Positions 7,762 through 60,817 of a stretch of 64,000 nucleotides of DNA are shown piece by piece. The first letter of the stretch is position 1. Every line of letters starts with the position of its first letter. The position numbers and the translations under genes are program-made. The DNA lies in the NCBI GenBank assembly GCA_963924555.1, contig OZ004596.1:4288139-4352138 (forward strand), in the 5' to 3' direction. Source of the DNA: Crambe crambe (lineage: Eukaryota > Porifera > Demospongiae > Poecilosclerida > Crambeidae). The notes beneath the pieces are model-generated. The model ran no database searches, had not been told where the DNA came from, and worked only from the letters and a program-made list of their open reading frames with translations.

Positions 7762-10350
7762 TCATTGGGGGTTGGGTTGATATTGTAGGATATCATCATA
7801 GTCTCCTTCACTGCTGGGTTTAACAAGGCTGCTTTCGTTTCCGGTCATATCAGTGTAGGTGGGGGTGTAGACTGTGTCATATTCTGCTGGTTTTTGTGAG
7901 CTCGCTTGATCGGTGTAGGTGGGGTTGTAGTAGGATGGGACTTCGTCATACTCAGCTGGTGTTTCTGAGCTCACTGTATTTTCCATTTTCACATCCCTTT
8001 CAACGAGCCTGGTTCGATCACCTTCACCATTCCTATAATATTGAGGGTACTGTATTATCAGTTGGATTTAGCTACGTTCCCTCCATTCAAAATCACCTGC
8101 AAGCTAAGTCATAGCTACCATGATTATTATAACGCACTTTTTAAAACTCATATTGGATCTAGGCCTGTTGAATGCATAGAGGACTGCCATTATTCCTGCC
8201 ACTAGCAACACTGTGCCCAAGAAGCCTCCCACCACACCTCCAACAATGGCAGGCACACTGGAATCCTTGGTGACAGCTGATTTGGTCGAGTCCACCTCTG
8301 TTGGAGTTGTTGGGTTCATGGCCTCGCATTCCATATGGCCTATGTCCTTCACATTGATTTGGCAGTAGGAGTCAACTTGCTGTGACACTCCCCCTACTGA
8401 TATCATTGGGTTGGTGTTCACCCATATCTGTACCATCTCTCTTAGTTCTGTGGCCTGTGCTCCATCAGTATTGAGGAGGTTGGACTGGTAGATGATTTCC
8501 CTGTCATTGCTACCACAGAGAAGGCGAGAATGAGTGACATAGTCCAGAGAATAAGGACATTGGCAATTTGACAAAATTTCTTGTACAATAGCAGATGAAA
8601 TATCAGTCGATTTTTGTGCAAGATTCTCAGTCTACATCATGTAACAATGAATTAAGTACATAACATACTACGAAGGGTAAAATTGATATTGACTTACAAT
8701 ATATGAGCTGCAACTTGTGTCTGATAATTTCAGGCGAATTTGGATATTTGTATTCGATGGCACTAATGGCAAGGTTTTAAGTTTTTAAATTAAAAGAAAT
8801 ATAATGCATAAACTTACAGTGTCCTCTCAATACATTGCTGAATCCACTCTCTCCTGCTCTGGTGCTAACTTGGATGGCCACACAGTATTCCTCAGTGGAC
8901 AGCAACCCATCAATCACAGCCTCCGATTGAGTGTGAAGACTCTCTGTTATGGTCATGAGTTGCATGTCTTCTTCATCTATGTCAGTGCATGTTCCATTTC
9001 GTGCTGGTTCGTAAGCTATCTGGAGAGAGGTGAGGACTCCTCTAGCCTCGTCCAGTGTCAAAGGGATCCAGAACACTCTAGCTGATCTGTTGCTAATTCG
9101 TACCACATTCAAGAGAGTGGGGACATCAGGAACTGCAAGAAAGCATACGTAATGAATGCCCTGGTTGATATATGTATAGATAGAACTGATACCTCCATGT
9201 TCAGTGAATATGACATCATTGACTGCTTCTCCTTCTCCTACTATTGTAGAGGCGGTAATGTTAACAGAGTAGGGTATGAATGGAGCTGCATAAAATAGTG
9301 GTTGTCATTATCATGACTAACAGATGAACTTCATGCATTATTACATAAATCATCGATAATGATTAATCGATTTTCGGTGGGAAGAATGCTGACATCAGTG
9401 GAGAAATTATTGAACACATTGTAGACTCTGATGGTGTAGTTTCTCAGTACTCCATTGGCCATTGCTGGTGGGTTCCATCGGATCGAGATGCTGCTATTAG
9501 AGAGCACATCCACAACAAGTCCAGTAGGCATGGATGGAGCTGTCAGTAAAGAGAATAATGTGGTCTGACAATATATTATGTCTCAAGTGACTACTGAGTG
9601 ACATTTTTGTGGGGTAAATATTTTGCAATTCTTATGTATTGAATTTTTAGTACCACAAAATTCACGAAATTTTATCCCGCAAATATTTCTGCTGTGCTAT
9701 AATTATACCTGCTTGAGCTGTTCTAATTTCATCCACATCGGACTTGGGTCCTTCTCCAGCACTCGTATTGGCAGACACTTCTATGGTAACCAGTTGGTAA
9801 GGCTGGAGATTTCTTAGTACAAATCTTCCAGTCAGGGTCCTATCAACTATGACTATTGATGTTCCATTATCAAATCTGACATAAAAGGTGTAGGCTGTGA
9901 GGACTCCATTTGGTACCAGTGGAGGTGCAAAGTCAAAGGTAAGACTATAAGGATCATCATTCTCAATGCTGATGTTCTGAGGAGGGTTATTTGGTGCTGT
10001 AAAGAATAATAATCCTTCATAATTAAAATGGTTACCTCTTACAATTTCACTATATACCTTCTTCCAGTGTCCTCTGAGCAGTGCATGAGTTAGGACTGGT
10101 TGCAGTGTCAGTTCGCACTGACACACAGCAGTTATAAACCATATAAGGTCTCAGTTCATGAAGCAGAACACGTCTCTCCTGACTGGCTTGTGTAGTCATA
10201 GTCAGACCAAAATCCCTGTCCGTTTCAGAACTGCAGTCTACAGTGTAGGAGAGTATGTTTCCATCACCACTATCATTGACAGGAGTCCCCCATAATACTG
10301 TCGCAGTAGTGGATTCAAGGTCATCAAAGGTTATGTCTTGAGGTGAACCT
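7762..10350 (-). other. R1 FN3 block, membrane-proximal module, TM and tail
   Basis: FN3-1 lies in one exon at about 10059-10350, FN3-2 at 9710-9999, FN3-3 is split over about 9350-9541 and 9194-9287, and FN3-4 is at 8816-9134. Typical FN3 Trp and PxxPNG turns are visible ([22 protein letters not shown]). A short exon (about 8698-8759) and the start of exon 8138-8631 form a module with CQCPY, LLCG and EMVQIWV, then a Gly-rich TM helix. Splicing 8138 to 8032 joins a tail (7762-8032) carrying YDEV, NPTY, YDTV, TPTY and YDDI. Those motifs fit PTB (NPxY) and SH2 (pYxxV/I) docking. The module occupies the place of a SEA domain, but I see no cleavage motif. Confidence 0.8.
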
Positions 10351-13300
10351 GAATGATCATATACATAATATGCATGTAGTTAGTATTCATACATGATTAT
10401 TACACTGTTTTGCACTGTGGGTCATGTGATCAGATTTGCATTATAGAGATTAATTTTTATATAGAGCTATGATCGATCATGATTATTTGAAGATGTAAAA
10501 ATAAGGTAGTGGGACGGGATGCATCTCATATATGGCCATAACACGTACTTTACTGCATGATCATCATAATCATAGGCACATGACTGCTGATGATGATATT
10601 CATGACCAATTGCAACTAATGAATAACAGAATAACAATTTATTCACCAAGACAGTTGTTGAGATTCGATGTTAAGGTGTAGCCAGGATTACAACCACACG
10701 TGTAAGAGCCAATGGTATTGTTACACAACTGTTCACAGGTGTGCGTTCCATCCTCACACTCATTAGCATCTAATAGTGATATTAATACTTACATAGGAGC
10801 ACTAAATGGCTAATTCAGATAAACCTCTGCATGTTATTCCATCAGCATTTAAGGTGTATCCAATATTGCAGGCACAATGGTAGGTGCCATACGTGTTCAC
10901 ACAAACCTCAGCACAATTATCCAAATCCATCCGACACTCGTCGATATCTATAAAAATAATCAAAATAATAGCTATTGGTGGTGATTGTGTTAGCTGCTTT
11001 GTACCATCACAGCGGAATCCATCAGGGTTGAGTGTGGTGCTGCTATTGCAGCTACAAGTGTAGGAGCCAATGGTGTTGCTGCATTGTTGGTCACACTGAT
11101 TCACCCCTTCAGTACACTCATCCTCATCTGAAGTGGCAGTGAAATTACTCAATGAACTATACAACAGTTAACCACGTTACCTCTGCATGATATTCCATCT
11201 GTGTTGAGAGTATATCCTGGATTGCAACCACAGTGCCATGACCCAGGAGTGTTCACACACACTTCCAAACATGTGGTGTTCCCTATGCGTCCGTTCAAGC
11301 ACTCATTCACATCTACAGTATACAATATATCCATGCAGTGAGATAAATAGATATAGGACTGTTAAATCTTCACTTACCATCACATCTGAATCCATCACTA
11401 TTGAGGGTGTATCCATCACCACAGCTGCATGTGTAGGAACCAACATTGTTATGACAGGTCTGATCACATTCATCAACTCCAGTAGCACACTCATCCAAAT
11501 CTTTCATTATTATGACATTGTATTAGTTTTAGAACTTGTTGGATGGTTAATAGCTACCTCCACATGTTCTGCCATCAGCATTGAGGGCATATCCAGCAAG
11601 ACAGGCACAGTGGAATGATCCTGCCGTGTTGTTACAAGCCATTTCACACATGTGATCACCTCCACACTCATCGATATCTATAAGAGTATGAAAGTTAAGT
11701 TGTATGCATGTACCGGTATATAGCCAGCTATACTGAAAGCTGTTAGCTAATTTTATTATCTCACCATCACACGAGTAGCCATTCTCATCAATAATGAACC
11801 CAATGCGACAACTGCAGGTGTAGGATCCAATCGTGTTGTTGCAGTCCTGAGCACACAATGCAGTGTCTTCTGCACACTCATCAATGTCTATACAATCAAT
11901 ATAATTATATCAAGCATTTACTGTTAGTTGGATTATTGATTATATTTTATACCTATACAAGTAAATCCATCAGTGTCCAGTCTGTATCCTATTCTGCATG
12001 TGCAGTTATAGCTTCCAGGTATGTTAACACAGTTGTGAGTGCACATGTCTGTACCAGCTGCACATTCATCGATATCTGCATACATGATTTAAAAAGAGAA
12101 ATCTGTTAATTGTAGCTAGCAACATGGTAATGTTTCTTTTTACCAATGCAGTCTCTGCCATTCTGTGTGAATCCAGCTATGCAGCTGCAAGTATATGAAC
12201 CTATAGTGTTGGTGCAGATCTGAGCACAGGCGTGAGTCCCAGCTGTACACTCATCGATATCTGGATGATCATGCGCACGGTTTTGAAATTCAGCTCATAC
12301 AGTGCTAGCTATAAGTTTATACCTGAACAGGTTGCTTGATCTGCATTGAGACCATAGCCTGGTCTGCAGCTACAGGTGAAGGACCCTGGAGTATTGTTGC
12401 ATATCTCTTGACAGTTATTAGTTCCAGAACTGGCGCATTCGTTGTTGTCTGTTGAAATATTGACAATTTAAATTAGCTAGTTATATTATGTAGCTATTAT
12501 ATATAAACAATTTTACTCTGGCTTGACTAAACTTTACCATTGCAGGTGTATCCATTAGAGTTAAGGGTATAGCCTGTGTTGCAACTGCATGTGAAGGATC
12601 CCACAGTGTTGCGGCAGTTTTGTGCACAGTTATCAGTCCCAGCCACACATTCATTAATGTCTATAATAATAATTAAAGAGTGAAATAATTAGCCTTTAAT
12701 CTTTAATTCCCTGATTCTCTCCATGCAGCTGCTCACCTGAGCACCTCCTCCGATCAGAGTCAAGACTGTAACCAGCATTGCAGCTGCATGAATAAGATCC
12801 TACCCGATTATTGCATCTCTGCTCACAACCTCCATTATTGGTGTTACACTCATTGATATCTGTCAACCATATGCATGAGTTACTATTATTGCATAACTAG
12901 CTAGGTATGACTGATAATATAACAATTTACCAGTGCAAGTGCGACCATTACTGTCAAGGGTGTAGCCTGAGTTGCAACTACATGTGTATGATCCAACTGT
13001 GTTTCGACAATTCTGTTGGCAGTCATTGGTGCTAGATGATGCACATTCATTGATATCTGCATTATTAATGTGTGTAGTATGTAGCTTATATGAAGAGGTG
13101 ACACTGTAGCTAATAACCATTGCAAGTAAATCCATTTGAGTTCAGGGAGTATCCTGCTCGACAGCTACACCTGAAAGAGCCTGGAGTGTCATGGCAGGTC
13201 TGTGTACATCGATCAGTACCCAACATACATTCATCATTATCTATATATAATATTATTCAGTCATATGAAAAGGGAGTATATATCCCAGATTTTTCAATAT

Positions 13301-14364
13301 TCATTATTTCCTTGTAGTAACTGGATAAACAATGACTGCTTACTGAGGCAACTCCGTCCATTTGTAGATAATGTGTAGCCACTATTGCACGAACATGTGT
13401 AAGAACCTGGTGTGTTTGCACAGTTTTGATCACACAGGTCCGTCCCTTCATTGCACTCGTGTATCTCTTCAGAGAAATGGTGAAATAAAACTCTACAGTA
13501 TGAAAAAGTGGCTATAATGTTACCAGCACATGTTCTTCTGTCAGAATTGAGCCTGTAGCCACTTCTGCATGAGCAGGTGTATGATCCACGAGTGTTGGAG
13601 CACAACTGCTGACAGTTGTTTGAAGAAGAACTTGCACACTCATCAAAGTCTGTAGTGATTTGATTATGACTCTCCTTTGGCTATAGCCTATAAAGCTAGC
13701 ATACATACCTGTTCCACATGTACTTCCAGTCCATCCTATTCGGCAATCGCATCTGTTAGGAGAAGTGCATCTACCTCCATTTTCACAACCAGGACTACAC
13801 ACAGCTATAAATGTTTATTTCATATTAGCTATATATATATATATAATATATATATAGGTAGCTATATAGCTGACATACGAGTGCATTGATTTCCTCCAGA
13901 TGCTGTGTAGCCTGCACAACATCCAAATTGACTAGAATAGGCTGCACTGTATGTAGTCCTTGAATTGCTGCGATACAATGTTCTGTAGGGATAGTACACA
14001 TGTGTAACAATATAGCTATATAATATCAAAAGACTCTTTAAAGATTTCTAACGCATGGATCCTTCCATGAAAGCCATGCAGATATATATATATATATATA
14101 CCTACTACATCTTGCCCAATTGAAAAGACCACACCCATATTGCTGAGTGTATGATCCTCTTGTGTAGCCTACAGAAGATACCTGTCTGGAAACCACACGG
14201 TTGCAAACTCTGAGGAATGGATACACACACACCAACTGATATACATAGCTATAGTTAGCTATAGCTACTTATAACTATACTTACCCTGTCTGAGCATTGC
14301 AATAGTACAGACAAATTGAGGCTATCACAATCAGAATAAGGGTGGCTGGCTGCACTCCATACAT
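7762..14364 (-). CDS. R1: EMI-EGF-cbEGF(16)-FN3(4) type I membrane receptor
   Basis: Complete gene read right to left. Exon 1 (14285-14364) encodes a hydrophobic signal peptide ending NAQTG; the ATG at 14362-14364 is used in the same place in the paralogs. Exons 14102-14209 and 13879-13982 give an EMI domain ([17 protein letters not shown], then FGCCAGY). Exon 13712-13803 gives one EGF of the form [11 protein letters not shown]. Next come 16 cbEGF exons, four FN3 domains, a membrane-proximal module with TM, and a tail ending at 7762. The EMI plus this EGF type are seen in Draper/CED-1/MEGF10 engulfment receptors; the cbEGF+FN3 body is not. Cell-surface adhesion or recognition is inferred. No stop or frameshift was noticed in any exon. 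Nearly every exon starts and ends in phase 1 until the TM exon. Confidence 0.85.
10647..13650 (-). repeat. R1 cbEGF array, 16 exons
   Basis: Each exon of about 120-135 bp encodes one calcium-binding EGF: D-[IVNLE]-[DN]-E-C ... C-x-N-x-x-G-S-[YF]-x-C-x-C. This includes the Ca2+-ligand acidic start and the Asn/aromatic consensus for hydroxylation. Exon low ends (minus strand, C-terminal to N-terminal): 10647, 10825, 11005, 11181, 11378, 11558, 11765, 11953, 12144, 12323, 12538, 12737, 12931, 13118, 13344, 13524. One repeat (low end 11181) has a longer first loop, [12 protein letters not shown]; another (11005) has SSTTLNPDG instead of GYTLNSDG; the one at 12144 has a short last loop. These peculiarities recur at the same positions in the paralogs, so repeats can be matched one to one. 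Confidence 0.9.
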
Positions 14365-14682
14365 GATTGCATTCACTGACTATGTGGAAGCTCATCTATA
14401 GCTAGTGAAGCACTATTTATAATGTAGTCATGGTGCATGAATGAATATCATTAATGCTCAGGTGACTTAGCTAATTGATATTCATGTATGCCTACTTGGG
14501 TGTATCAGAACTATTATGGGTGATTATCACGTGTCCCCCCACCCCCCCCCCCCCCCCAATAACTCTTCCATTAGTTAGATTTCATTCTGAAATAAATTAT
14601 CAGACAGAATCAGAAGTGTTTATAGCTAGTAACGATTCAGTATACATGTACTGTATAAACAAAATCAGTCAGAATTAGTGAC
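14365..14682. promoter_or_regulatory. R1 upstream region with element conserved in R3 and R4
   Basis: Upstream of the R1 ATG there is a TATAAAT-like string on the minus strand near 14410-14417. A 30-bp block at 14456-14485 (gctcaggtgacttagctaat then tgatattcat) recurs almost unchanged at 30221-30250 (R3) and 38434-38463 (R4). The block holds the E-box-like CAGGTG/CACCTG. A C-rich run, (C)6A(C)16, sits at 14535-14557. No gene is seen in this stretch. The promoter role is inferred from position and conservation. Confidence 0.4.
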
Positions 14683-14913
14683 TTACAACTTACATGTGTC
14701 TGTTTCAGGACTGGTATATAAGCAGGTTAAACTGGATCTAATTTCTTCGTAAATGGGGTCTTCATGGATGACATCTTCATAGATAGGATTTTCAAAATCC
14801 ACGCTATACTCGTTTATATATACTTCAATGTTCACATACCCAGTCTGAGCACTGCAGTAATACACTGCCACTGTCAGAAGAAGGACAATGGTTATCTGAA
14901 CTACTCCATCCAT
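14683..14913 (-). pseudogene. Receptor relic: signal-peptide exon abutting a tail exon
   Basis: A single open frame of 76 codons. The first 25 residues are a receptor signal peptide ending SAQTG, nearly identical to that of R2, followed by the same GTATGTGAAC donor sequence as R2 exon 1. Instead of an intron and ectodomain, the sequence runs after about 25 bp into a tail exon of the R4-R7 class with [18 protein letters not shown], then a stop. All EMI, EGF, FN3 and TM exons are missing. The most economical reading is a deletion from intron 1 to the last intron of an eighth copy. If transcribed, the unspliced frame would encode a small secreted or signal-anchored peptide with two tyrosine motifs. 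Confidence 0.75.
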
Positions 14914-15492
14914 TTCTGCACTGCCTTTAGAAACTAGCTAGTTCTATGCTTCTGTACCCACAAGCTGTAGTATCATCATTGTCATGGTATATGAATACCT
15001 TCATTGTGTAATCATCCTACATTACGTATGAATAAGCTAGAGGTTCTATATGTGACTTGAGTGGTGTTATATTCGTAAGACTTGGATGTACTTTAAACTA
15101 TCATATCACACATCTTGTTATTAAAAAGCTATTTGGTTGGAATCATATTGTGTACAACGATGTAGCTACATAGAGCAGTAGATATCTACATGAATTATGC
15201 ATGAAATACCATGACTGCATGTATAAAATTGGATACTCCTGCTGAAGTAAATAATCAGTCTGAAAATTCTCTAATGAAGTAACGGGCTCCATACATCAGT
15301 GCCTCCCCCCCCCCCCCCTTTAATACATAGCTAGCTATTCATTTATGTACTAATAAGCAATCTCTATATCTCTTACTACATATAATAGATAATATGTATA
15401 TGCATGGATAAATATAAAACTTGTATTGTGGTTATATGATAATACTTAAAGTTGTGTGCATGGTAGTCAGTCACTATATCATTATTGTTCGT
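14914..15492. other. Intergenic: relic upstream region and C tract
   Basis: No gene seen. The part from 14914 to about 15110 resembles the region upstream of R2 (22527-22710), sharing atgaatacctt and cttgagtg-tgttat strings. The relic therefore kept the promoter region of its parent. A run of about 15 C occurs at 15304-15318. Confidence 0.5.
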
Positions 15493-22526: not shown

Positions 22527-23038
22527 TTCTGCACTGCCTTGTTCTAACTAGCTAGCTCTAATGTGTGCACTAGCTCCAATATGATTGTTTTATATCATTG
22601 TCAAATAATGAATACCTTAATTGTAATTATCATTATTATATCCGCATTATGAATAATAACTTCTATATATAACTTGAGTGATGTTATGTTTATAACACTT
22701 GCATGCATTTAGTTTCACTATAGGTATATCACTAATGTAGGTATCACTATTGGTATTATCAAGATCTACCATCTTTTCACTAAAAGATATACTGTTTGGT
22801 TGTGTATAACCATATACATAGACCAGTAGGTAAATCCCTATCATGTTACAGAATGGGGACTCCTAGCTGGATGGTAGTGAATATTAATAGCTATATTAAT
22901 CAAAATTTTGGCACATGAATAATAATGATGAAATAGCTACACACATGTACAGATATTATGCAGGATTATAAAGTTTAAATAGAAATAAAAAATAATCTGT
23001 AGCTTTAGCTTGAAACTTTCATTTTCTAATAACTGTCA
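22527..23038. other. Intergenic R2-R3, R2 upstream region
   Basis: No gene seen. AT-rich, with TAGCTAGCT strings directly upstream of R2. The block 22600-22720 is shared with the upstream region of the relic at 14913, consistent with a common promoter. I cannot identify a TATA box with confidence. Confidence 0.4.
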
Positions 23039-30123: not shown

Positions 30124-30352
30124 GATTGCATTCACTGACTATGTGGTAGCTAGCTGATCTATAAAATTATATGATAAAGCACTATTGATCATGGTGTATG
30201 AATGAATACCATTAGATAAAGCTCAGGTGACTTAGCTAATTGATATTCATAGTTACACTTACTCGGGTAGTAGTTAGTTTCACAGAATAATCAATAGTAG
30301 TAAAACTAGGGTAATTACCACATAGTGTTATCATGTCTTCTTTCCTCCCTCC

Positions 30353-38366: not shown

Positions 38367-38776
38367 GATTGCATTCACTGACTATAATTATGGTAGCTGA
38401 ATTAGATGATGAAGCACTATATGAATGGATAAAGCTCAGGTGACTTAGCTAATTGATATTCATAGTTATGCTTACTCGGGTAGTAATTTCATTATAGTAG
38501 TATAGAAGTAGGGTAATTTTTTTCCTTACCACGTAGTATTATCATGTCTCCCCAGGGGATACTTCTTTCCTTCCTCCTATTATATCCCTCCCCCTCCCTA
38601 TAGCTCTTCCATCGAATTAAATGCAATTTTGAAAAAAAAAAATTATAATTTCCACAGAATCTGGTGTGTTAATAGCTGAAAAGTATATGATATGCTATAT
38701 ACACAAAAATAGTTACTTACAACTACATGTGTGTGGCTAATCTGTTTCAAGTACATAACAGCTAGGTTAAACATGT
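38367..38776. other. Intergenic R4-R5 with R4 upstream element
   Basis: No gene seen. Contains the conserved block 38434-38463 upstream of R4 and the uninterrupted (empty) version of the site occupied by the TIR element between R3 and R4. A CCCTCCCCCTCCC tract is near 38585. Confidence 0.55.
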
Positions 38777-44300: not shown

Positions 44301-46283
44301 TACCTATTACACATACTATGCCCTTGGGAGTTGAGATCATTCATTACACATGCTACTCTTTTCTCCATTTTTTTCCTCCTTTTTTGCATGCAGTATAACT
44401 AATTTTTACCTGTTGCACAATTACGTCCAGTCCATCCTGTTCGGCAAGAGCATCTGTTAGGAGCAGTGCAAGTACCTCCATTTACACAACCAGGACTACA
44501 CACAGCTGAAGTGTGTATGTAATAATATTGTTCAATAGAATTAGTTCTCATAAAATTAGCTTATATATGAAACAAACCACCAACGTTTCGACCAGAATAC
44601 TCTAGCCTTCATCAGGGTGATACAAAAAATGCACACAGAAACGTCCTTATATAGCTACGCTCGTTATCTAGATAACGCACATGCAAACGCCTATGGATAT
44701 TATATTATAGCATGCCAATACCTGAAGTCATAAACACTATTTCCCTAAGGCTTTAAGCGTAGAAACCCAGCAACCTTGAAGTTCTAGACCTACATCCCTA
44801 TTAAAACGCTGCTCTTCTGAAGTTAAACCAATATGAAGCGCTTCTTTTAGAAGCAACTCCTTCCTAGTCCTAGCTTGATCTACAACTGAAGCTTCCTTCC
44901 ATAATATAGGATGATGATTACTCCAGGCATGATCAGCAACAGCAGATTTTTCTTGTTCTCCTCGTAGGCAAGCTTCCTTATGCTCCTTCAGCCTAGTTTC
45001 CAGCCTTCTCACCGTTCCACCAATGTAAAATAGGCTAAATAGTGCCACCTCTTTGCTATAATATTTTATTTTCTTATTATGTAGATATCAATGAATGCGC
45101 AGCATCTAGCACCAATGACTGCCAACAGAATTGTCATAACACAGTTGGATCGTACACATGTAGTTGTAACTCAGGCTACACTCTTGACAGTAATGATCGC
45201 ACTTGTACAGGTATGTATATTATCAGTCATACCTAGCTATACAAGCATAAGGAAGCTTGCCTACGAGGAGAACAAGAAAAATCTGCTGTTGCTGATCATG
45301 CCTGGAGTAATCATTATCCTATATTATGGAAGGAAGCTTCAGTTGTAGATCAAGCTAGGACTAGGAAGGAGTTGCTTCTAAAAGAAGCGCTTCATATTGG
45401 TTTAACTTCAGAAGAGCAGCGTTTTAATAGGGATGTAGGTCTAGAATTTCAAGGTTGCTGGGTTTCTACGCTTAAAGCCTTAGGGAAATAGTGTTTATGA
45501 CTTCAGGTATTGGCATGCTATAATATCCATAGGCGTTTGCATGTGCGTTGTCTAGATAACGAGCGTAGCTATATAAGGACGTTTCTGTGTGCATTTTTTG
45601 TATCACCCTGATGAAGGCTAGAGTATTCTGGTCGAAACGTTGGTGGTTTGTTTCATAAGCTAATTTTATGAGAACTAATTCTATTGAATTTTTATCATGT
45701 TAGCTGAGAATAATAAGCAGAGTTCGAATAATATTGTTTATATAAATTGTGTGCTGCAGGTGGTTTTAGCTATAAGGCTATATTTCATATCAATCAAAGT
45801 ACAGCCATCTACTTCTATGTGCATGCCAAATGGAATGCAAATAGCTATATAATTATGATAACATACGAAGGCATGTAGTGCCAGATTGTCTGTAGCCAGT
45901 ACAGCAAGCAAATTGGCTGGAATAGGCTGCACTATAGCTTGTCCGTGAAATTCTACGATATAGTGTCCTGCAGTGCAAAATTAATTTCATAGCTGTAAAC
46001 TATAAAGACAGTGTTGGTATGCTTTGCATGCTCATGTGTCTTACCTGCGGCACCTTCTCCAACCGGCAAAGCCACACCTATATCGATCATTGTAACCTTC
46101 TCGTGAGTAGGCTGCTCCAGATACTTGTCTTGAATTTGCTCTGTAGCAAACTCTGCATGCATGAGGGAGATAAAAGCTAATTACTCCAATGATCATGTTG
46201 TTCACTTACCCAGTCTGAGCACTGCAGTGACACACTGCCACAATTAAAATAACAGCAACAATTAATTGAACTACTCCACACAT
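38777..46283 (-). CDS. R5: EMI-EGF-cbEGF(15)-FN3(4) type I membrane receptor
   Basis: Fifth copy. Exon 1 is 46210-46283 (ATG 46281-46283, MCGVVQ type). EMI exons are about 46047-46153 ([14 protein letters not shown]) and 45868-45970 (FACCTGY); the EGF exon is 44412-44507 ([11 protein letters not shown]). The intron between EMI exon 2 and the EGF exon is expanded to about 1.36 kb by a Penelope-derived inverted structure (44521-45738). Only 15 cbEGFs are present: the first is a hybrid of repeats 1 and 2 of R1-R4. R5, R6 and R7 form a second subfamily with distinct cbEGFs and FN3s. The exons look intact. Whether splicing survives the insertion is unknown. Confidence 0.82.
41404..44265 (-). repeat. 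R5 cbEGF array, 15 exons
   Basis: Low ends near 41404, 41582, 41765, 41961, 42235, 42419, 42591, 42778, 43029, 43214, 43402, 43590, 43771, 43959 and 44134. Differences from R1-R4: the membrane-proximal repeat is shorter ([20 protein letters not shown]); the 41765 repeat has an enlarged loop, [13 protein letters not shown]; the 42778 repeat is [16 protein letters not shown]. The exons at 43771 and 43959 are close to R1/R2 versions, whereas most others are specific to R5-R7. Confidence 0.88.
44586..44615 (-). ncRNA. Hammerhead-like core (left Penelope arm)
   Basis: Inverted counterpart of 45608-45637, with the same CTGATGA and GAAA boxes and the same 7-bp stem on the minus strand. Caveats as for the right copy. 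Confidence 0.38.
44740..45048 (-). CDS. Penelope-like GIY-YIG endonuclease fragment (left arm)
   Basis: An open frame of about 100 codons with [46 protein letters not shown] and CW near the end, then a stop. This is the C-terminal GIY-YIG nuclease domain typical of Penelope-like retroelements; the Arg in TRLKEHK and the Glu in KEALHI are at the expected catalytic positions. The first half of GIY and the whole reverse transcriptase are absent, so it is a dead 5'-truncated copy. The first codons of the frame run into copied receptor intron sequence. Confidence 0.75.
45038..45242 (+). pseudogene. Inverted, intron-flanked copy of a receptor cbEGF exon
   Basis: The plus strand carries a receptor cbEGF ([17 protein letters not shown]...) with its intron acceptor side (ttattttcttattatgtag) and part of the donor-side intron. 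It matches the R5 exon at 43771-43935 in reverse orientation; the left junction has microhomology (aaatagtgcc). It differs from R5 in the exon (TLDSNDRTC instead of TLDSNGRTC) and in the 3' intron, which instead resembles R1 (attatcagtcatacctagct). Being antisense to R5, it cannot be part of the R5 mRNA. Confidence 0.8.
45246..45491 (+). pseudogene. Penelope-like GIY-YIG fragment (right arm)
   Basis: The plus strand reads [20 protein letters not shown] onward to the same C-terminus and stop (45489-45491). It has two amino-acid differences from the left arm (SNHHP to SNHYP, GLEL to GLEF). It starts about 20 residues later than the left arm, directly at the junction with the copied receptor exon. 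Confidence 0.75.
45608..45637 (+). ncRNA. Hammerhead-like core (right Penelope arm)
   Basis: The string CTGATGA at 45608-45614 and GAAA at 45634-45637 bracket a hairpin that can pair over 7 bp (GGCTAGA with TCTGGTC, GTAT loop, including G-U pairs). Penelope-like elements are known to carry hammerhead ribozymes with these two boxes. One extra A after CTGATGA and an unclear stem I make activity uncertain. The mirror copy is at 44586-44615 on the minus strand. Confidence 0.4.
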
Positions 46284-50472: not shown

Positions 50473-53261
50473 AAATGATCATGGTTTGTATTACAAGACA
50501 TACAAAATATATTAATTACAGCGAAGTTGCTACCAAGACAGTTCATCAAATTTGATGTTAGTGTGTAGCCAAGATCACAACTGCAAATGAAGGAGCCATT
50601 AGTGTTCTCACAGAAATGTTCACAGATATTCTCATCACACTCGTTAACATCTGAATGGAAAAAAAATCTTATCATAGTATGTAGCTACTGCAATTTGGTT
50701 AACTACCTGCACAAGTTTCTTCGTCATCATTTAAGACATATCCAGTGCTACAGGCACATTCGTAGGTCCCATATGTGTTCACACAAATGTCATCACAGGT
50801 ATCCAAATCCATCTGACACTCATCAATGTCTAGAAGGAGTATATTTTATGGCCTGTGAGACACATTATTGCAACATGGTTATGCATACCATCGCAACGGT
50901 ATCCATCAGGATTGAGCACCACTGAAATGTTTGGATTGCAGCTGCAAGTGTAGGAGCCAACAGTGTTATTGCACAAATGGTCACACTGGTTCATCCCTTC
51001 ACATTCATTAACATCTGAAAGTATACATAGTCATTGTGCCATTATCATGGTTACTGCATTCCTGTAATACTTATGGCTACATGTACCTCTGCAGGATGCT
51101 CCATCTGCATTGAGAGTGTATCCTGGATTGCAGTCACAGCGCCATGACCCAGGAGTGTTCACACACACTTCCAAGCATGTGGTGTTCCCTATGCGTCCAC
51201 TCGAACACTCATTCACATCTATAAGAATTAATCATTGAGCATTATGTCTAGCCAAACCAAAAGCATCACCAGTATACGATTTATTATATTTTGCATGCAC
51301 CGATTTGACTGAATCAATGATTTCACACTCTTGATTTACATACCATCACATCTGAATCCATCACTATTGAGGGTGTAACCATCACCACAGCTGCATGTGT
51401 AGGAACCAACATTGTTATGACAAGTCTGATCACACTCATCAACTCCAGTAGCACACTCATCAACATCTATGTATTAAGGTCAGCATTAATCACTATAACG
51501 ATAACTACATTGCACATAATTGTTACCTGTTGCACAAGTACTCCCAGTCCATCCTGCTTGGCAAGAGCATCTATTAGGAGAAATGCAACTACCTCCATTT
51601 GCGCAAGCAGGACTACACACAGCTGAAGTGTGTAGATAAATATAACATCTAGGTGCTCTAAGGATCAGTGCATAAGCTTTTACCTGTTGCACAAGTACCT
51701 CCAGTCCATCCTGCTCGGCAAGAGCATCTGTTAGGAGAAATGCAAGTACCTCCATTTGCACAACCAGGACTACACAGAGCTGAAGAGCATATATAAGGGT
51801 CAGTATATACAGTGCAATATATGGGCAAGAGCATCTGTTAGGAGCTGTGCAAACACCTCCATTTGCGCAAGCAGGACTACACACAGCTATGTGTACCAAC
51901 AAATAAATAATGTGATCATCTAGCCCTAGCCCTAGCCCTAGCCCTTGCCCTATAGCCCTGTGATCATAGTTGATTTATATTCACTTGATTATTATAAGGT
52001 TACAAATTCCTGACAAAATTGTGTGCTGCAGGTGGTTTTAGCTATAAGGCTCTATTTCATATCAGTCAAAACAAAATTTTCTACTTCTATGAATGGCACT
52101 TAAAGGAGTGCACACCCCAGATGGCTCAGGGGAGATATGGTTGGACAATATGCACTGCATTGGAAATGAAACTAAGCTCATGATGTGTGCTGCCCAACTA
52201 AAAGGAATACACAAGTGTGATCATGGCGAGGATGCCGGAATCCTAGATTTGGGCTATATCTTCTAATTAGCTATGTATGATTAATAGCATGCTCTCATGG
52301 CGATATTATTGTTCAAGAAGAAAACAGTATCCTTGGTCAAGTTGTAATCTGCTTCAATAGTGTATGGAGAACAGTATGTGCTAATAATAGTTGGGATGAT
52401 GCTGATGCTGCAGTTGCTTGCAGACAACTAGGACATTCTGCAGCAGAAGCTAAAGCAGTTGCAATGGCATCAACCATGATTTCTGGCTGAATGTTCAGTG
52501 CCATGGAGGTGAAGCAAGATTAATCAACTGTATCTCAATTGAAACTGTGTCCCAGAGGTTTAAGTGTCAAGATGTATGTTGGAATTAGCTGTATCCCCAG
52601 ATCCAGTAAGTAAATTTAACTGAAGCAGCTTGGACTATAACAGGTATAGCTAGCTAGCTAGCTAAATTAAATGCAGCTCAATCTTCAGTTTCACTTCATA
52701 TCAACAGTATACATGCAAATGGAATGCAAATAGCTATTATGATAACATACGAAGACATCTTGAGCCAGATTGTCTGTAGCCAGTGCAGCAAGCAAATTGT
52801 CTGGAATAGGCTGCACTATAGGTTCTCCGTGAAATACTACGATATAGTGTCCTGCAGTACAAAATTAATTTCATAGCTGTAAACTATATAGTTTTTAGAG
52901 TGACTTTTAATGATAGCTATATATATGCTTTGCATGCACGTGTTTTACCTTCTGCACCGACGCCAACCAAATACACCACAGTTATATTGGTCAGTGTATC
53001 CTTGTCGTGAGTAGGCTGCTAAAGGTACTTGTCTTGAACTTGATCTGTAGCAAACTCTGCATGCGTGAGGGAGACAAGAAATATAATCAATTCTGTGGGG
53101 CTTGCCTATAGAATTAGCCCTGTGCTGCCAGTCTCCTGCAGTTCTTGCAAAATTATTATAGAAAAAAAGATCATGTTGTTCACTTACCCAGTCTGAGCAT
53201 AGCAGTGATACACTGCCACAGTTAAAATAATAGCAACGATTAATTGAACTACTCCACACAT
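47876..53261 (-). CDS. R6: shortened receptor, EMI-EGF(2-3)-cbEGF(5)-FN3(4)-TM
   Basis: Sixth copy, internally deleted. Exon 1 is 53188-53261 (ATG 53259-53261, MCGVVQ type, ending YAQTG). EMI exons are about 52950-53057 and 52750-52853. Instead of one EGF exon there are two full copies (51682-51780 and 51527-51625, both CSPxCANGG type) and a truncated third (51825-51888). Only the five membrane-proximal cbEGFs remain. FN3 block, module, TM and tail are complete. No stop is seen in retained exons and phases stay 1-1, so a shorter receptor could be made. An antisense SRCR fragment sits in the long intron 51890-52750. Confidence 0.78.
50534..51471 (-). repeat. R6 cbEGF array, 5 exons
   Basis: Low ends near 50534, 50707, 50890, 51087 and 51344, corresponding to the five most membrane-proximal repeats of R5 and R7 (NENICEHFC-type [46 protein letters not shown]). 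The ten preceding repeats are missing. The intron after 51471 begins like the R7 intron after its matching repeat (57718) and ends like the R7 intron before the EGF exon (tacattgcac near 51507 and 59975), placing the deletion joint near 51495-51505. Confidence 0.85.
51527..51888 (-). repeat. Tandem EGF exons in R6, last copy truncated
   Basis: Three copies of the CSPxCxNGG EGF exon, where all other receptors have one. Copies at 51527-51625 ([11 protein letters not shown]) and 51682-51780 ([11 protein letters not shown]) are full, with acceptor and donor. The copy at 51825-51888 has the acceptor and [11 protein letters not shown] but breaks off after NRCSC into non-homologous sequence, without GWTG and without a phase-1 donor, so it is probably a dead exon. 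Confidence 0.8.
51922..51958. repeat. (CCCTAG)n short tandem repeat
   Basis: About four to six copies of CCCTAG, decaying to CCCTTG and CCCTATAG, in the R6 intron next to the truncated EGF exon. Not the canonical telomeric hexamer. Confidence 0.85.
52103..52620 (+). pseudogene. Antisense SRCR-domain gene fragment in an R6 intron
   Basis: The plus strand has the second half of one SRCR domain (52121-52245: [25 protein letters not shown]) and then most of another (52296-52590: [26 protein letters not shown]). In the second, the frame changes near 52487 and continues in another frame as [15 protein letters not shown]. Stops and the frameshift show it is non-functional. The R5 intron lacks this sequence between ctacttctatg and aaatggaatgcaaatagct, so it is an insertion of about 600 bp into R6. 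SRCR proteins are usually secreted or membrane scavenger-type receptors. Confidence 0.75.
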
Positions 53262-54116
53262 CTTTAGAATGATGTTAGGCTATGCAGTTCAGTGCAACCA
53301 ATAGACCGTTATATATGCATGGTCTGGGGTATATTTAGCAAATGTGTTCCAATTCACTAGTTCATGTATTCATGAAATTAAACCTCCCACTTATTATTCA
53401 CTGGTGTATAGTTACCAGCAATAATAGTAGTTCATTAGGCATTCCTTTAAATAATGATGCATGCTCACTTAAGTAGCATTGTTGATTCTTGTGCAACAAT
53501 ATAGTTAGCCATGGTATGTCAATAATAATATAGCTAGCTACCCCATGCTGGTGTGAGACAATAGTTGGCCATAGTATGTCAATAGTGCCCAGCCATGTTG
53601 GGGTGTGTGGTCTGGATTTGAAATCAATGCATCTCATTATGAGAGAAACAATGACACAGACACTTAAAAAAGGAGTGCTGTCGCTATTGCCAGGTGTTGT
53701 TGAGATAGGGTTGCCAATCACAGCAGCTGCAGCAAACTGCAGAGCATAGGGAGTGAAATAGTTGACTCACAGTTCACTAGCTAATCTCAAGAGAATAACA
53801 AAATTGGAACAGTATCAATGGTTATAGTCTAAACAATTTCTGGTAGCTTGAAACTCCACAACATTAACCTAAATACGTAATACAGTTAGCTAATGTTATC
53901 ATGTTCCCCCCCCCCCCCCCCCCCCCCCCCCCCAGGGGATGTTTTCTTCCTTTCTCCTGCCCCTCCCCCTCCCCTATACTGTAAAAATTAAAATTAATTG
54001 CCACAGAATCTGATGTGTTAATAGCTATAGAACTATACAACTTAATATGCTGTACGTACAACTATAGGTGTGTAGCTAATCTGTTTCAGGTACAAACATG
54101 TCCACTGTGCATGTGA
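53262..54116. other. Intergenic R6-R7 with long C tract
   Basis: No gene seen. 53310-53530 duplicates the sequence upstream of R5. A run of 28 C occurs at 53906-53933, where the homologous position between R5 and R6 (47675) has only six. It lies just downstream of the R7 stop. Confidence 0.6.
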
Positions 54117-56720
54117 TTATTTATCATCTGAGCTCCTTTTCTCACCAGGAAGCTCAGTATCATCCGAGTTCCTTTTTGCACCAGGAAGCTCGTTATAGAC
54201 ATATGTATCATCATCTGAAAAGTTTATCTCCTTCTCCTTTTCCAATTTTATCTCCTTTTCCAAGTCTTCTTTGGATTTCATTTCTTCATAAATAGGGTCT
54301 TCATGGATGAGATCATCATAGACAGGATTATCAAAGTCCATGTTACTGAAGTTGGTAGGAATATACGAGTTTGCAGCTTGGTGACTGGATATTGTTATCA
54401 TTTCATTCTGGTCACATTTATTTCTAGTAAAATAAATTAGCAATAACTACAGCAGATTAAGAAAAGATGGAGCTCCAGAGTAAGCTTATTCGTATTAGGA
54501 ATGATTTTGATGAGAATTATATTTGTGTATACATGTAACTAGTTCTTGCAAGAACATACAGCAGGGTAAGGGTAAGTTCATGCATGTATCATGCACACAC
54601 AAGCAAGATTTTCTTACAAGGGGTGGCTGTCTTCCATTTTCAAAATCTTTCTCTTCTTGGATTTGGTACAACAGCAGCACAGGATTCCAATACACAGGAT
54701 CATGAGTAGGAGCACTCCAGCTCCTCCTGCTGCAGCTCCAGCAATCACTGCTATGGAAACTTCCACTGCTTGTTTAGTTGCCATCACAACAGTAGGGGTG
54801 GTTGGATTGATGGCCATACACTCCATGCTGCCTATCTCTGATACTTCTACTTGACAGTAGGAGCTAACTTGCTGTGACACTCCCCCTACTGATATCGTAG
54901 GGTTGGTGTTCACCCATGTCTGTACCATTTCCCTCAGCTCTGTGGCCTCTGCTCCATCAGTATTGAGGAGGTTGGACTGGTAGATGACTTCTCTGTCATT
55001 ACTGCCACAGAGAAGGCGAGAATGAGTGACATAGTCCAGAGAATAAGGACATTGGCAATCGGATAAGAGTCTTCGTACAATGGCAGAGGAAATATCTACA
55101 GACTTTTGCATACTGTTTCCAGCCTATTATTGAGAATACATTTAGCAGCAGACACATGCATACGTGGCCTTTACTTACTATATATTCAAAGCACGAGCCT
55201 TGCAGCTGGAGACGAATCTGGACGAAAATGCTTGACGGTACTGCATGGAGGATGAAGGTATCCATACTATACTATGCACTTGAGATACTCACAATGTAAT
55301 GTCAGGAGATCACTGTATCCACTCTCTCCTGCTCTGGTGCTGACTTGGATGGCCACACAGTATTCCTCAGTGGCCAGCAACCCATCAATCACAGCCTCCG
55401 ATTGAGTGTGGACACTCTCTGTTATTGTCATGAGTTGCATGTCTTCTTCATCTATGTCGGTGCATGTTCCATTTCGTGCTAGTTCGTAGGCTATCTGGAG
55501 AGAGGTGAGGACTCCTCTGGCATCCTCCAGTGACAAAGGAATCCAGAACACTCTAGCTGAGGTGTCATTGGTGCGAATCACATTTGATAGAGTGGGAATA
55601 TTAGGGACTGTGAGGATAAATCATCATAATCAGATGAATGCACTGTATGCCTATACATACGTACCTCCCTCTTCAGTGTAGAAAGTGTAACTGGCAGGCT
55701 CTCCTTCTCCTGGCATAGTTGAAGCAGTTATGATAATCATATAGGGTACATGTGGAGCTGCAAAAAAAGTACATGTTATAGTTATAATTGCTATGCATGA
55801 TAGATACACACTCGTCATGCATTTCTTACACAAGTTGTCAGCAGTGACTGATCGAGCGTCAGTTGGAAGAGTGTTGAATTCAGTGATGGAATCATTGACT
55901 ATATCATGAATTATAATGGTGTAGTTTGTCAGCACTCCATTGGCCCTTGTCGGTGGGTCCCATCGGATTACTATGCTGCTATTGGAGATCACATCAACCA
56001 CAAGTCCAGTAGGCATGGATGGAGCTGTCAGTAATACATATATTGATTTCAATGAACATATTATATAGCTATGAGTTAAGTACCTGTTTCAGCAGTTCTG
56101 ATTTCATCCACATCAGACTTGGGACCTTCTCCTACACTTGTATTGGCGGACACCTCTATGGTAACCAGCTGGTAGGGGAAGAGGTTTTCCAGGACAAATC
56201 TTCCTGTGAGGGATCTATCAACCACAATTATTGATGTTCCATTGTCAAATGTGAAGTAGAAAGTGTAGGCTGTAATGACTCCATTTGGTACCAGTGGAGG
56301 TGCCAAGTCAATGGTAAGACTATAAGGATCGTCATTCTCAATGCTGACGTTACGAGGAGGACTATTTGGTTCTACATCCAGTGATACATCATAAAGTTAA
56401 GTAGATTTTGTAGAATTGTGTTATACCTTCTTCCAGTGTCCTCTGAGCAGCACATGAGTTAGGGCTGATTGCAGTGTCAGTTCGCACTGACACACAGCAG
56501 TTGTAAACCATGTAAGGTCTCAGATTGCGAAGCAGAACACGTCTCTCCTGGCTAGCTTGTACTGTCATTGTCAGACCAAAATCCCTGTCTGTTTCAGAGC
56601 TGCAGTCTACAGTGTAGGAGAGTATGTTTCCATCACTGCTATCATTGACAGGGGTCCCCCATAATACTATCACAGTAGTGGATTCAAGGTCACCAAAGGT
56701 TATGTCTTGAGGTGAACCTA
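54117..56720 (-). other. R7 FN3 block, membrane-proximal module, TM and tail
   Basis: FN3-1 about 56427-56718, FN3-2 56085-56373, FN3-3 split over 55830-56026 and 55667-55759, FN3-4 55292-55605, linker about 55184-55245, module/TM 54618-55125, tail 54117-54423. Tail motifs are NPVYDDL, DPIYEEM and VYNEL. YDDL and YEEM are separated by six residues, the spacing of an ITAM, with Met at the last position. A Lys/Glu-rich insertion (KLEKEKEI) lengthens this tail relative to R6. Confidence 0.8.
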
Positions 56721-59700
56721 AAATGATCATGGTTTGTATTATAAGACATATACGATATATTAATTACAGAGTTGCTACCAAGACAGTTCATCAAATTTGA
56801 TGTTAGTACGTAGCCAAGATCACAACTGCAAATGTAGGAGCCATTAGTGTTCTCACAGAAATGTTCACAGATATTCTCGTCACACTCGTTAACATCTGAA
56901 CGGAAAACAAAGTCTTACCATAATATGTAGCTACTGGAATAGGGTTAGCTAACTGATGTATTACCTGCACAAGTTTCTTCGTCATCATTTAAATCATATC
57001 CAGTGCTGCAGGCACATTCATAGGTACCATATGTGTTCACACAAATGTCATCACAGGTATCCAAATCAATCTGACACTCATCAATGTCTAGAAGGAGTAT
57101 AGTATATTTTATTGCCCGATAGACACATTTTGTGACATGGCTATGCATACCATCACAACGGTATCCATCAGGATTGAGCACCACTGAAATATTTGGGTTG
57201 CAGCTGCAAGTGTAGGAGCCGACAGTGTTATTGCACAGATGGTCGCACTGGTTCATCCCTTCGCATTCATTAACATCTGAAAGAGTAACATATGTATACA
57301 TAGTCATTGTGCCATCGTCATGGTTACTGCATTCCTGTAATACTTATGGCTACATTATAATATATACCCCTGCAGGATGCTCCATCTGCATTGAGAGTGT
57401 ATCCTGGATTGCAGTCACATTGCCATGACCCTGGAGTGTTCACACACACTTCCAAGCATGTGGTGTTCCCTATGCGTCCACTCAAACACTCATTCACATC
57501 TATAAGAACCAAAATACAACATCATAAGTATACAAGATTTTATATTTTGCATGTCTGAATCAATTATTTCACACTCATGCATGATTTTATACCATCACAT
57601 CTGAATCCATCACTATTGAGGGTGTAACCATCACCACAGCTGCATGTGTAGGAACCAACATTGTTATGACAGGTCTGATCACACTCATCAACTCCAGTAG
57701 CACACTCATCAACATCTATGCATTAAGGTCCTCCGTGTACAGCATTAATTAATCACTTGGCCTGGTCTAAAATTCACCTCTACATGTTCTTTGATCACCA
57801 TTGAGGGTATATCCAGTGCGACAAGCACAGTGGAATGATCCAACAGTGTTGTTACAAACCATTTCACACCCATGTTGAGCACCTCCACACTCATTCACAT
57901 CTGCATATCAATCATTGAATTCATGTATACAAAACTACCAAGTTATCTCATACCATCACACGTGTAGCCATTTTCATCAATGATGAATCCAGGACGACAA
58001 CTACAAGTGTAATTTCCTTCCGTGTTGTGGCAATTGTGAGTACACAGAGCAGTGCCTTCTGCACACTCATTGATATCTGTATGTGTAATAGATTGCCTTG
58101 TTCATAGTAATATCTGTAGCAACTTGGTAGTATATCACCCGTGCATGTGAAGGTATCACTGTTCAATCTGAATCCTGGTCTACATGAGCAACGATATCCA
58201 CCAGGTAAGTTCATGCACATGTGGGAACATCGAGCAGTCCCAGTGGTGCATTCATCTTCATCTATATATGATGGCAAGAAATTACAGTTGGTCTAGCCCC
58301 AATAAACAAGATAGCTACTCTGAGAATTCAAAATTAAGCTTCAGGGAATTGATATTCATCTCAAAGTGATTTCTTTTGCCTCTGATAAGAGGGCAACCTC
58401 TTCATGATGTATAAATATTTATATTATTATAGTTTCACTGCATTCTACACTTTGCAAACAAAACTATCACGTACACATGCAACTTACCATCACAGCCTCT
58501 TCCATCACGATTCAACACATACCCATTATTGCAGCTGCAAGTGTAGGAACCAACTGTGTTGTGGCATATTTGAGCACAACCATGTGTTCTGGCCGCACAT
58601 TCATTGTGATCTGAGTATTAATTTTATCATAGGCATTAGCTATATTATTATTCATATTGGATTGTATACCCGAGCAAGTGGCTCCATCTGTATTGAGGAC
58701 ATAGCCTGATCTACAGCTACAGACGAAGGATCCTGGAGTGTTTGTACAAACTTGCTGGCAATTATTAGTTGAAGAACTGACACATTCATCGTTATCTGTT
58801 TCAGTTATTATTAGCTATAGACAGTCTTTTATCTACATAGCAAATTTCTATTGGCATACCATTACAAGTGCGCCCATTACGATCAAGAGTATATCCTGTG
58901 CGGCAACTACATTCAAAGGAGCCATCAGTGTTTTGGCAATTGTGGTCACACGAGCTGGCATTCAAACACTCATTAACATCTATATATAATAGTAAAAAAT
59001 GCTGATGATGAATAAGCAATCTCCTCTTTAATACAGCTACATCCTCTCCATGCTGCTGCTCACCTGAGCAACCTCTCTGATCAGAGTCAAGACTATAACC
59101 AGCATTGCAGCCACATGAGTAAGATCCTGCCCGATTGATGCATCTCTGCTCACAACCGCCATTGTTGGTGCTACACTCATTGATATCTATCAACCATAAG
59201 CATCTAATTAGTTATATTGCTGTAAATGATTGCATAGCTATAGGTATGACTGATTTACCTGTGCAAGTGCGACCATTACTGTCAAGGGTGTAGCCTGAGT
59301 TGCAACTACATGTATATGATCCAACTGTATTGTGACAATTCTGTTGGCAGTCATTGGTGCTAGATGCTGCACATTCATCGATATCTGCATTATTAATGCG
59401 TAAGCTATACTTGTGTTACAAAGAGGTGACACTGTAGCTAATAACCATTGCAAGTAAATCCATCTGAGTTCAGGGAGTATCCTGCTCGACAGCTGCATGT
59501 GTAAGAGCCTGGAGTGTCATGGCAGGTCTGTGTACATCGATCAGTACCCAACATACATTCATCATTATCTATATATGCACGATAATAAATATTGGGTAAA
59601 AATGTACAAAAAATATCATTCTTACGTACTGATGCAACTCCTTCCATTAGTAGATAAAGTATAACCAGTGCCACAAGAACATCTATACAATCCAGGAGTA

Positions 59701-60817
59701 TTGATGCATAACTGCTGGCAATTGTTTAAAGAAGGATTCTGACATTCATTGATATCTATTTTGAAATTATAATGCATAGCGATTAAATTGACACTCCAGA
59801 TCTTAACATTATACCTATTACACATACTATGCCCTTGGGAGTTGGGATCATTCATTATATACATGCCCCCCCCCTTAAAAATTCCCCCTTCTCCTACAGC
59901 AATAGAACATAAAATGAGTAGCTAATTAGGTAGCTATTTTCTTCCCTTTTTTGCATGCAGTGCATGTAGCTAACTACATTGCACGTAATTTTTACCTGTT
60001 CCACAAGTACTTCCAGTCCATCCTGTTTGGCAAGAGCATCTGTTAGGAGCAGTGCAAGTACCTCCATTTACACAAGCAGGACTACACACAGCTGAAAAAT
60101 TGTGTAATTATATATATTATACACTATAAAAATGGGGGTGTCATGGCAAAATGTGCGAAAAATTAATGGCACTAAAGATTTGTGTTGACCATAACACCTT
60201 GCTATAACACATTGGTGTTGTCATAACACCATCAGTGTAGCAACAACTTTCAGTATCACTGTGGCACCCTGGTGTCATTTTCGCACAAAAAAATACACCC
60301 AAATTTGGACATCCCCATTTTTACAGTGCTATAGCTATAATTATTATTAGTAGCTAACATACGAATGCATCGATTTCCTCCAGAATCTCTGTAGCCTGCA
60401 CAACATCCAAATTGACTAGAATAGACTCGATTGTATACTGTCCTTGAAACACGGCGATACTGCGTTCTGGAAAAAAATTATTTGCATGCCTTAATGACTT
60501 ATCTACCTAGCTAGATATGTGTAGCTACTATGGGATGTGCATGCATGCATGCACTTTGGTTACCTTGTACATCTTGCCCAATTGAAAAGACCACAGCCAT
60601 ATTGCTGAACATATGGTTCTGTTGACATGCTTACAGCAGCTGTTCGACTTGAGACTGGACGGTAGCAAACTCTGAGGAGAATAATGTTTAATAGCTATAA
60701 TAATATTATAGCTACATGTAAATAATTATCTTTATACTGCACACACCCTGTCTGGGCACTGCAGTGACACACTGCCACAGTTAGAATGACAGCAACTAAC
60801 TGAACTACTCCACGCAT
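54117..60817 (-). CDS. R7: EMI-EGF-cbEGF(15)-FN3(4) type I membrane receptor
   Basis: Seventh and rightmost copy. Exon 1 is 60747-60817 (ATG 60815-60817, MRGVVQ start, SAQTG end, GTGTGT donor). EMI exons are about 60566-60672 ([17 protein letters not shown]) and 60360-60465 (FGCCAGY). The EGF exon is 59999-60093 ([11 protein letters not shown]). The EMI resembles R1/R3/R4 while the signal peptide resembles R5/R6, another sign of exchange. It has fifteen cbEGFs as in R5, with the same hybrid first repeat. A MITE-like element (60122-60328) lies in the EGF-EMI intron. All exons appear intact. Confidence 0.85.
56778..59756 (-). repeat. R7 cbEGF array, 15 exons
   Basis: Low ends near 56778, 56964, 57151, 57368, 57593, 57776, 57952, 58138, 58489, 58671, 58858, 59063, 59258, 59446 and 59628. 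It matches R5 repeat by repeat. The N-terminal one starts like repeat 1 of R1-R4 (NNCQQLC) and ends like repeat 2 (TLSTNGRSC). Confidence 0.88.
60122..60328. mobile_element. MITE-like element in an R7 intron
   Basis: A 207-bp insertion with terminal inverted repeats cactataaaaatgggggtgt on the left and atccccatttttacagtg on the right. Internal strings such as ttggtgttgtcataacacca also pair. No coding capacity. Terminus related to that of 21267-21392. Confidence 0.65.

Follow-up and report, generated by a model that had tools for sequence, protein, structure and literature searches.

We describe seven intact genes, R1 to R7, arranged in tandem in a 64,000-nucleotide stretch of the genome of the sponge Crambe crambe (contig OZ004596.1, here C19; the whole stretch analysed, C19:4288139-4352138, is the window), and suggest, with a probability of roughly one half, that they encode type I surface receptors for engulfment- or adhesion-type recognition. 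Their predicted proteins combine an EMI-like tip, EGF and calcium-binding EGF (cbEGF) repeats, four FN3 domains, a juxtamembrane cysteine module, a transmembrane segment (TM) and a short tail bearing tyrosine motifs. The reading is built on the gene structure, this architecture, the excess of motifs in the tails, conflict between the trees of different domains and the recurrence of the module across the genome.

Gene models and domain architecture

Seven complete models, all on the minus strand and ordered right to left, occupy 60817-7762 of the window, bearing out the initial annotation, which had proposed seven same-strand copies of a type I receptor. They were built by six-frame reading, self-comparison and exon-by-exon homology with splice-phase checks. 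Each has 18-28 exons and no internal stop, and each joined frame stays open to one final stop; the introns (n=173) have a median length of 64 bp and the genes lie 410-1592 bp apart. Because homology was used to seed the exons, and AG/GT sites in the correct phase (a few chosen by hand) then set their limits, the presence of AG/GT at all 173 introns is partly by construction. The informative part of the models is that such sites are available at every exon and that the joined frames are open.

R1, 60817-54117, minus strand: intact, 27 exons, 1430 aa, 15 cbEGF
R2, 53261-47876, minus strand: intact, 18 exons, 1047 aa, 2 EGF, only 5 cbEGF
R3, 46283-38777, minus strand: intact, 27 exons, 1419 aa, 15 cbEGF
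R4, 38366-31256, minus strand: intact, 27 exons, 1416 aa, 15 cbEGF; R5-like ectodomain, TM and tail like those of R1-R3
R5, 30123-23039, minus strand: intact, 27 exons, 1404 aa, 15 cbEGF; a tail type of its own
R6, 22526-15493, minus strand: intact, 26 exons, 1355 aa, 14 cbEGF; signal peptide and EMI R2/R3-like, body R7-like
R7, 14364-7762, minus strand: intact, 28 exons, 1458 aa, 16 cbEGF

We ruled out a haplotig artefact, as the copies follow one another along a single 6.5 Mb contig and differ by a synonymous divergence (dS) of 0.12-0.97 in their cbEGF repeats. The copy-number change claimed earlier is also seen: besides the seven intact copies there are a diverged eighth gene, R0, and a probable ninth (both described below), and the number of cbEGF repeats itself varies from 5 to 16.

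The exons follow one scheme, in the order signal peptide, EMIa, EMIb, EGF, the cbEGF exons, FN3-1, FN3-2, FN3-3 (two exons), FN3-4, Sa, Sb with the TM, and tail, with two EGF before the cbEGF array in R2 and one in each of the others. In R1 the main parts are placed as follows.

60671-60363, minus strand: EMI-like domain (exons 60671-60564 and 60466-60363; PF07546, E 0.00025, 22.2 bits)
55293..56717, minus strand: four FN3 (exons F1, F2, F3a+F3b, F4; four stretches of Pfam fn3)
54618..55240, minus strand: juxtamembrane cysteine module (Sa 55240-55179; Sb 55123-54618, TM included; gene model)
54117..54423, minus strand: tail exon, NPVYDDL...PIYEEM (gene model)

Pfam recognizes EGF_CA in 15 stretches of R1 (E 7e-108) and fn3 in four (2e-38); at E 0.1 its output for R1 was limited to fn3, models of EGF type and a single spurious model, with no Ig and no Calx-beta. 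The spurious model, Orthoreo_P10 from reovirus, reached 22.8 bits against the exon carrying the R1 module and TM (cut-off 21.4) and a sub-threshold 20 against whole R1; we rejected it as a chance resemblance to a cysteine-rich TM. The EMI domain of the initial annotation survives in part: PF07546 was the top Pfam match in all six short spliced N-terminal pieces searched (R1, R2, R3, R4, R7 and R0), yet every score lay below the Pfam cut-off, and we therefore name the domain EMI-like. In the PDB, SCARF1 (8hn0) matches the end of the EMI-like part together with the EGF (E 0.0007), and the best solved relatives of the R1 FN3 tandem are LAR-type phosphatases, neogenin/DCC, Dscam and contactins (best E 5e-24). 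Two hydrophobic segments, at the N-terminus and ahead of the tail, were found in 7/7 proteins (Kyte-Doolittle mean of at least 1.6 over 19 residues) and are predicted to be the signal peptide and the TM. The initial annotation had not recognized the domain order as that of a described family, and we likewise found no description of it in titles and abstract openings of the open-licence literature.

Tyrosine motifs in the tails

The diverging tails noted earlier fall into three dissimilar types (R1-R4; R5; R6-R7). No catalytic domain follows the TM in R1-R7, whose tail exons end within 70-102 aa, and in this the proteins differ from the LAR-type receptor phosphatases, neogenin/DCC, Dscam and contactins that they resemble in their FN3 tandem. 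Six motif patterns were tried against shuffled tails. NPxY occurs six times, in 6/7 tails (shuffle mean 0.19; 0/5000 shuffles reach 6), and YxxPhi, with Phi being I, L, V or M, 16 times and in all seven tails (mean 5.5; 0/5000). Acidic-context tyrosines, Y[DE][DE], number 12 against a mean of 1.8 (0/5000), Yxx[ILV] 12 against 4.8 (1/5000), and spacings resembling an immunoreceptor tyrosine-based activation motif (ITAM-like) three against 0.25 (19/5000). PxxY was not enriched in the tails (5 against 2.4; 394/5000). When only one tail per type was kept, in four choices of three, at most 26/3000 shuffles reached the observed NPxY, YxxPhi or Y[DE][DE].

Mosaic copies and a fast-changing tip

Different parts of the genes have different trees. 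The EMI tree sets R1, R4, R5 and R7 against R2, R3 and R6; the cbEGF, FN3-3 and module trees set R1, R2 and R3 against R4 with R5 and R6 with R7; and the TM and tail tree joins R1-R4. Approximately unbiased (AU) tests rejected the competing grouping in 10 of 11 cases (p 0.015 or less), the 11 representing 9 distinct splits, two of which were repeated from the other side. For EMI, {R1,R2,R3} (3e-10) and {R6,R7} (7e-129) were rejected; for cbEGF, {R2,R3,R6} (7e-7) and {R1-R4} (6e-6); for FN3-3, {R2,R3,R6} (0.002) and {R1-R4} (0.003); for the module, {R1-R4} (0.015); and for TM plus tail, {R4,R5} (0.002), while {R1,R2,R3} together was not rejected there (p 0.17). Sliding identity places the tail-class switch of R4 near 32.0 kb, within exon Sb, and the switch in R6 between the EMI and EGF exons. 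The exchange between copies anticipated by the initial annotation is thus seen in both the conflicting trees and these two switches, and the genes appear to be mosaics whose outer tips and inner tails have been swapped between copies. FN3-1 looks homogenized between copies, with a pooled dS of 0.16 against 0.33, 0.46 and 0.23 in FN3-2 to FN3-4. Swapping of tips and tails is as expected of a family that recognizes cells or microbes.

High similarity of the ectodomains had also been claimed, and it holds for the units as wholes, which are ~80-92% alike across 1-5 kb in pairwise self-comparison of the window, but not for the tip. Of the ectodomain segments the EMI-like tip varies most, at 51-97% identity (97% between R4 and R5), and its pooled nonsynonymous divergence (dN) is 0.25 against 0.05-0.19 in EGF, cbEGF, FN3 and module.

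A per-domain comparison of dN/dS (w; Nei-Gojobori, with 95% intervals by codon bootstrap within classes), suggested as a check by the initial annotation, was carried out. Pooled over all pairs, w is 0.50 in EMI, 0.64 in EGF, 0.25 in cbEGF, 0.31, 0.20, 0.42 and 0.27 in FN3-1 to FN3-4, 0.27 in the module, 0.42 in stalk plus TM and 0.47 in the tail. Within classes, cbEGF (0.15, 0.11-0.20), FN3 (0.26, 0.18-0.37) and module (0.20, 0.10-0.35) are under purifying selection, while stalk plus TM stands at 0.56 (0.23-1.49), the tail at 0.58 (0.37-0.94) and EMI at 0.89 (0.57-1.49). The within-class EMI test omits R5, whose EMI and that of R4 are too alike (97% identity). Within classes, then, the tip is near-neutral and the fastest-changing part in recent pairs, and positive selection on it (w > 1) was tested and not supported.

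Recurrence of the module elsewhere in the genome

Within the cysteine module, six columns of the Sb part (five Cys, one Trp) are invariant in 15/15 aligned copies. Searches of the 143 Mb assembly (119 contigs) at E up to 0.1 gave 78 matches with the R1 module as query and 92 with that of R0, together marking 101 distinct places when weak matches and relics are counted in (C12 40, C19 24, C11 16, elsewhere 21). Groups of three or more, linked by steps under 80 kb, hold 78 of the 101; there are nine such groups, six of them single-strand throughout. We excerpted 58 module loci of ~3.3 kb, of which 14 repeat a place, leaving 44 distinct places that include R1-R7; kinase-type motifs were found in none of the 58. 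Outside R1-R7, the FN3 model finds upstream exons at seven places and the cbEGF model at three. In ten loci read by eye, Ig, FN3 or cbEGF exons adjoin the module and several carry tyrosine-bearing tails; a C9 and a C11 locus read in this way look FN3- and Ig-type. Pfam searches of the excerpts of two loci, L014 and L032, placed Ig (3/3) and FN3 (1/1) above a cut-off. These other receptors of the same genome resemble R1-R7 in the homologous module, mostly preceding a TM, and differ in having, where read, Ig, FN3 or cbEGF ectodomains rather than the EMI-EGF-cbEGF-FN3 order.

Two same-strand groups on C12 (C12:458181-586473 and C12:902751-1024281) hold 13 and 10 module matches, with Ig, FN3 or cbEGF exons adjoining in the loci read. 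A third such group, the second on C19 (C19:4634177-4836002), has 13 matches and is separated from the ninth gene by ~235 kb; FN3-model matches accompany two of its members, and one tyrosine-rich tail was read there.

No relative of the module came to light outside this genome in the collections searched. Over its 15 members Pfam gave four families, all weak, and SEA matched 0/15 copies at E up to 1; a PDB profile search returned no match at E up to 10. One peptide pattern gave seven matches in GTDB contigs and two patterns gave 25 in IMG/VR, of which none was confirmed; neither collection holds animal genomes, and these negatives are therefore uninformative on other sponges. The module could conceivably be the hallmark of a superfamily of sponge recognition receptors built by mix and match, in which it is combined with Ig, FN3 or EMI/EGF ectodomains and with exchangeable tyrosine tails, and whose clusters trade both ends through conversion, a proposal that we hold to be doubtful rather than probable. 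If true, this superfamily would be a strong candidate for supplying the missing receptors by which sponges tell self from non-self and recognize microbes, and the module would allow its wider membership to be counted in any sponge genome.

Recognition and its alternatives

Receptors of the MEGF10/Draper/CED-1 plan carry EMI and EGF repeats outside and an NPxY plus YxxL/ITAM tail inside, and engage Src-type kinases, SH2 kinases and PTB adaptors, as set out in passages of PMC8092387. R1-R7 resemble these, and SCARF1 and PEAR1, in an N-terminus that is at least EMI-like, EGF, a single TM and a tail with NPxY (6/7) and YxxPhi (7/7), with ITAM-like spacing in three of the seven. We nevertheless reject membership in the MEGF10 family because the ectodomain differs, exceeding EMI plus EGF/NIM repeats by the cbEGF, the four FN3 and the cysteine module; the tandem cluster of seven intact and two further genes and the sub-threshold EMI are further differences.

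In the likely mode of action, the EMI-like tip and adjacent EGF would bind a ligand on a cell surface, in the matrix or on a microbe, presented by a stalk of cbEGF repeats and four FN3 that the cysteine module would hold at the membrane. Clustering of the receptors would lead Src-type kinases to phosphorylate tail tyrosines, with NPxY recruiting PTB adaptors, YxxPhi or acidic-context tyrosines recruiting SH2 proteins, and adhesion or uptake following. Unequal crossing-over may change how many copies there are and how long their stalks are, and a tip or tail may come to sit on another body by gene conversion or exchange. The ligand, kinases, adaptors, cell type and role, and the equation of the fast tip with binding, are what we infer here.

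Several observations weigh against this reading. The cbEGF, which make up most of the repeats in R1-R7, and the FN3 domains are foreign to the MEGF10 plan. The EMI matches are sub-threshold in 6/6 pieces (E 0.00025-0.032; 15.4-22.2 bits against a cut-off of 25), EMI is absent from the Pfam output at E 0.1 for whole R1 and for longer R7 and R2 pieces, and the better PDB matches of the tip are EGF-only (fibrillin-1 2e-14, WIF1 8e-14). ITAM-like spacing is confined to 3/7 tails, and the seven tails are related by descent. The AU groups were named post hoc, once distances were known. The within-class w draws on one set of pairs for the tip and another for the body, both picked post hoc, and rests on 70 codons; between EMI classes its w is 0.36 (0.16-0.70), the all-pairs value of 0.50 is near those of FN3-3 (0.42) and the tail (0.47), and a w near 1 may reflect relaxed constraint.

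Allorecognition, in which the copies would vary between individuals and let sponge tissues distinguish self from non-self on contact, would account for the tandem cluster, the relics, exchange between copies, the variable tip and the dissimilar tyrosine tails. We know of no established receptors behind sponge tissue recognition. Alr proteins are known to signal through their tails, and the aggregation factor core protein of sponges is secreted and bears Calx-beta repeats. Graft specificity in sponges suggests a polymorphic genetic system, and aggregation-factor adhesion genes were not enriched in the Amphimedon graft transcriptome, according to the main text of that study, from which the word 'receptor' is absent (PMC5450542). 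The Hydractinia Alr family, 41 members strong, serves allorecognition, and sponge aggregation factors are extracellular proteoglycan complexes, as described in passages of PMC11999971. R1-R7 resemble Alr in being a clustered family, tandem and with exchange between copies, and resemble aggregation factors as sponge cell-recognition candidates; they differ from the former in having EMI/EGF/FN3 rather than Ig domains, and from the latter in their TM-like segment (7/7) and tail. With the cluster seen in one haplotype only and purifying selection (w 0.15-0.26) acting on its cbEGF, FN3 and module, we consider allorecognition unlikely. Quite unlikely, in our judgement, is that these are TM-anchored structural or adhesive proteins of EMILIN/fibrillin type, duplicated for dosage, whose tails serve endocytic trafficking only: the cbEGF arrays are indeed fibrillin-like, most of the ectodomain is under purifying selection, and NPxY and YxxPhi also act as endocytic signals, yet a purely structural protein would not be expected to have a variable tip or to exchange its TM and tail with other copies, and the Y[DE][DE] excess suits SH2 sites more than sorting signals.

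Least probable is expansion by drift of developmental or growth-factor-type receptors that lack a recognition role, the mosaics being ordinary gene conversion in a tandem array. Conversion does homogenize such arrays, as the low dS of FN3-1 illustrates, and w at the tip is not significantly above 1; against this stands the distribution of the module, whose 101 matches include 78 that fall into nine groups and whose ectodomains vary where read, a clustered pattern of differing ectodomains on a shared module that is better known from recognition families. For sponge tissue recognition, the locus offers intact, mappable candidate receptors on one contig, in which exchange of tips and tails can be typed between individuals.

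Relics and neighbouring genes

The initial annotation had counted at least one relic, and we find three, listed here with the end of R0 that enters the window at its right edge.

14913-14683, minus strand: relic between R6 and R7, in which a signal-peptide exon of R6 type is fused to part of a tail of R1 type; frame still open, gene body missing
51886-51825, minus strand: truncated EGF exon inside an R2 intron
62531-62349, minus strand: relic of a module exon, broken, its genome match containing two internal stops
62905..63708, minus strand: 3' end of R0, module and TM 63708 to ~63239, tail to a stop near 62905

The first exon of R0 lies ~16 kb outside the window. R0 is known from exon matches of the R1-R7 models (two EMI exons, 15 EGF, 17 cbEGF, three FN3 and the module). 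One of its EGF exons contains a stop (76448-76353, window numbering), and R0 may therefore be damaged. Upstream of it on C19 lies the probable ninth gene, with EMI exons at C19:4398961, 21 EGF, 2 cbEGF and two FN3 matches, and a module at C19:4387188 that presumably belongs to the same gene. Its EGF array (C19:4389500-4399300) contains a six-exon unit present three times, nearly identical, which is a recent internal expansion.

Other EMI-like genes lie elsewhere in the assembly: on C5 (2080600-2084600), where a TM-like frame is present and the EGF model has no match within 4 kb; on C10 (2645000-2648600), with seven good cbEGF matches; and on C1 (4852500-4856200), with two. An R3 intron holds a 97% inverted repeat (44531-44984 / 45244-45688) with an open reading frame at 44737-45087 on the minus strand that has no Pfam match at E 0.01 and that we take to be a GIY-YIG endonuclease of a Penelope-like element. 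Left of the cluster is a Ser/Pro-rich open frame of 411 aa (5624-6859, plus strand), likewise with no Pfam match at E 0.01. Among papain-type protease matches elsewhere in the genome, 12 short regions were examined and seven have the active-site motif, five with cysteine and two with serine. As we take serine at this position to be the silicatein signature, the exons concerned are presumably silicatein-type, which is suggestive of a siliceous demosponge; their motifs, CGSSYAF and CGASYAFSAMAALEG, stand within a group of papain-type matches at C15:865480-877990.

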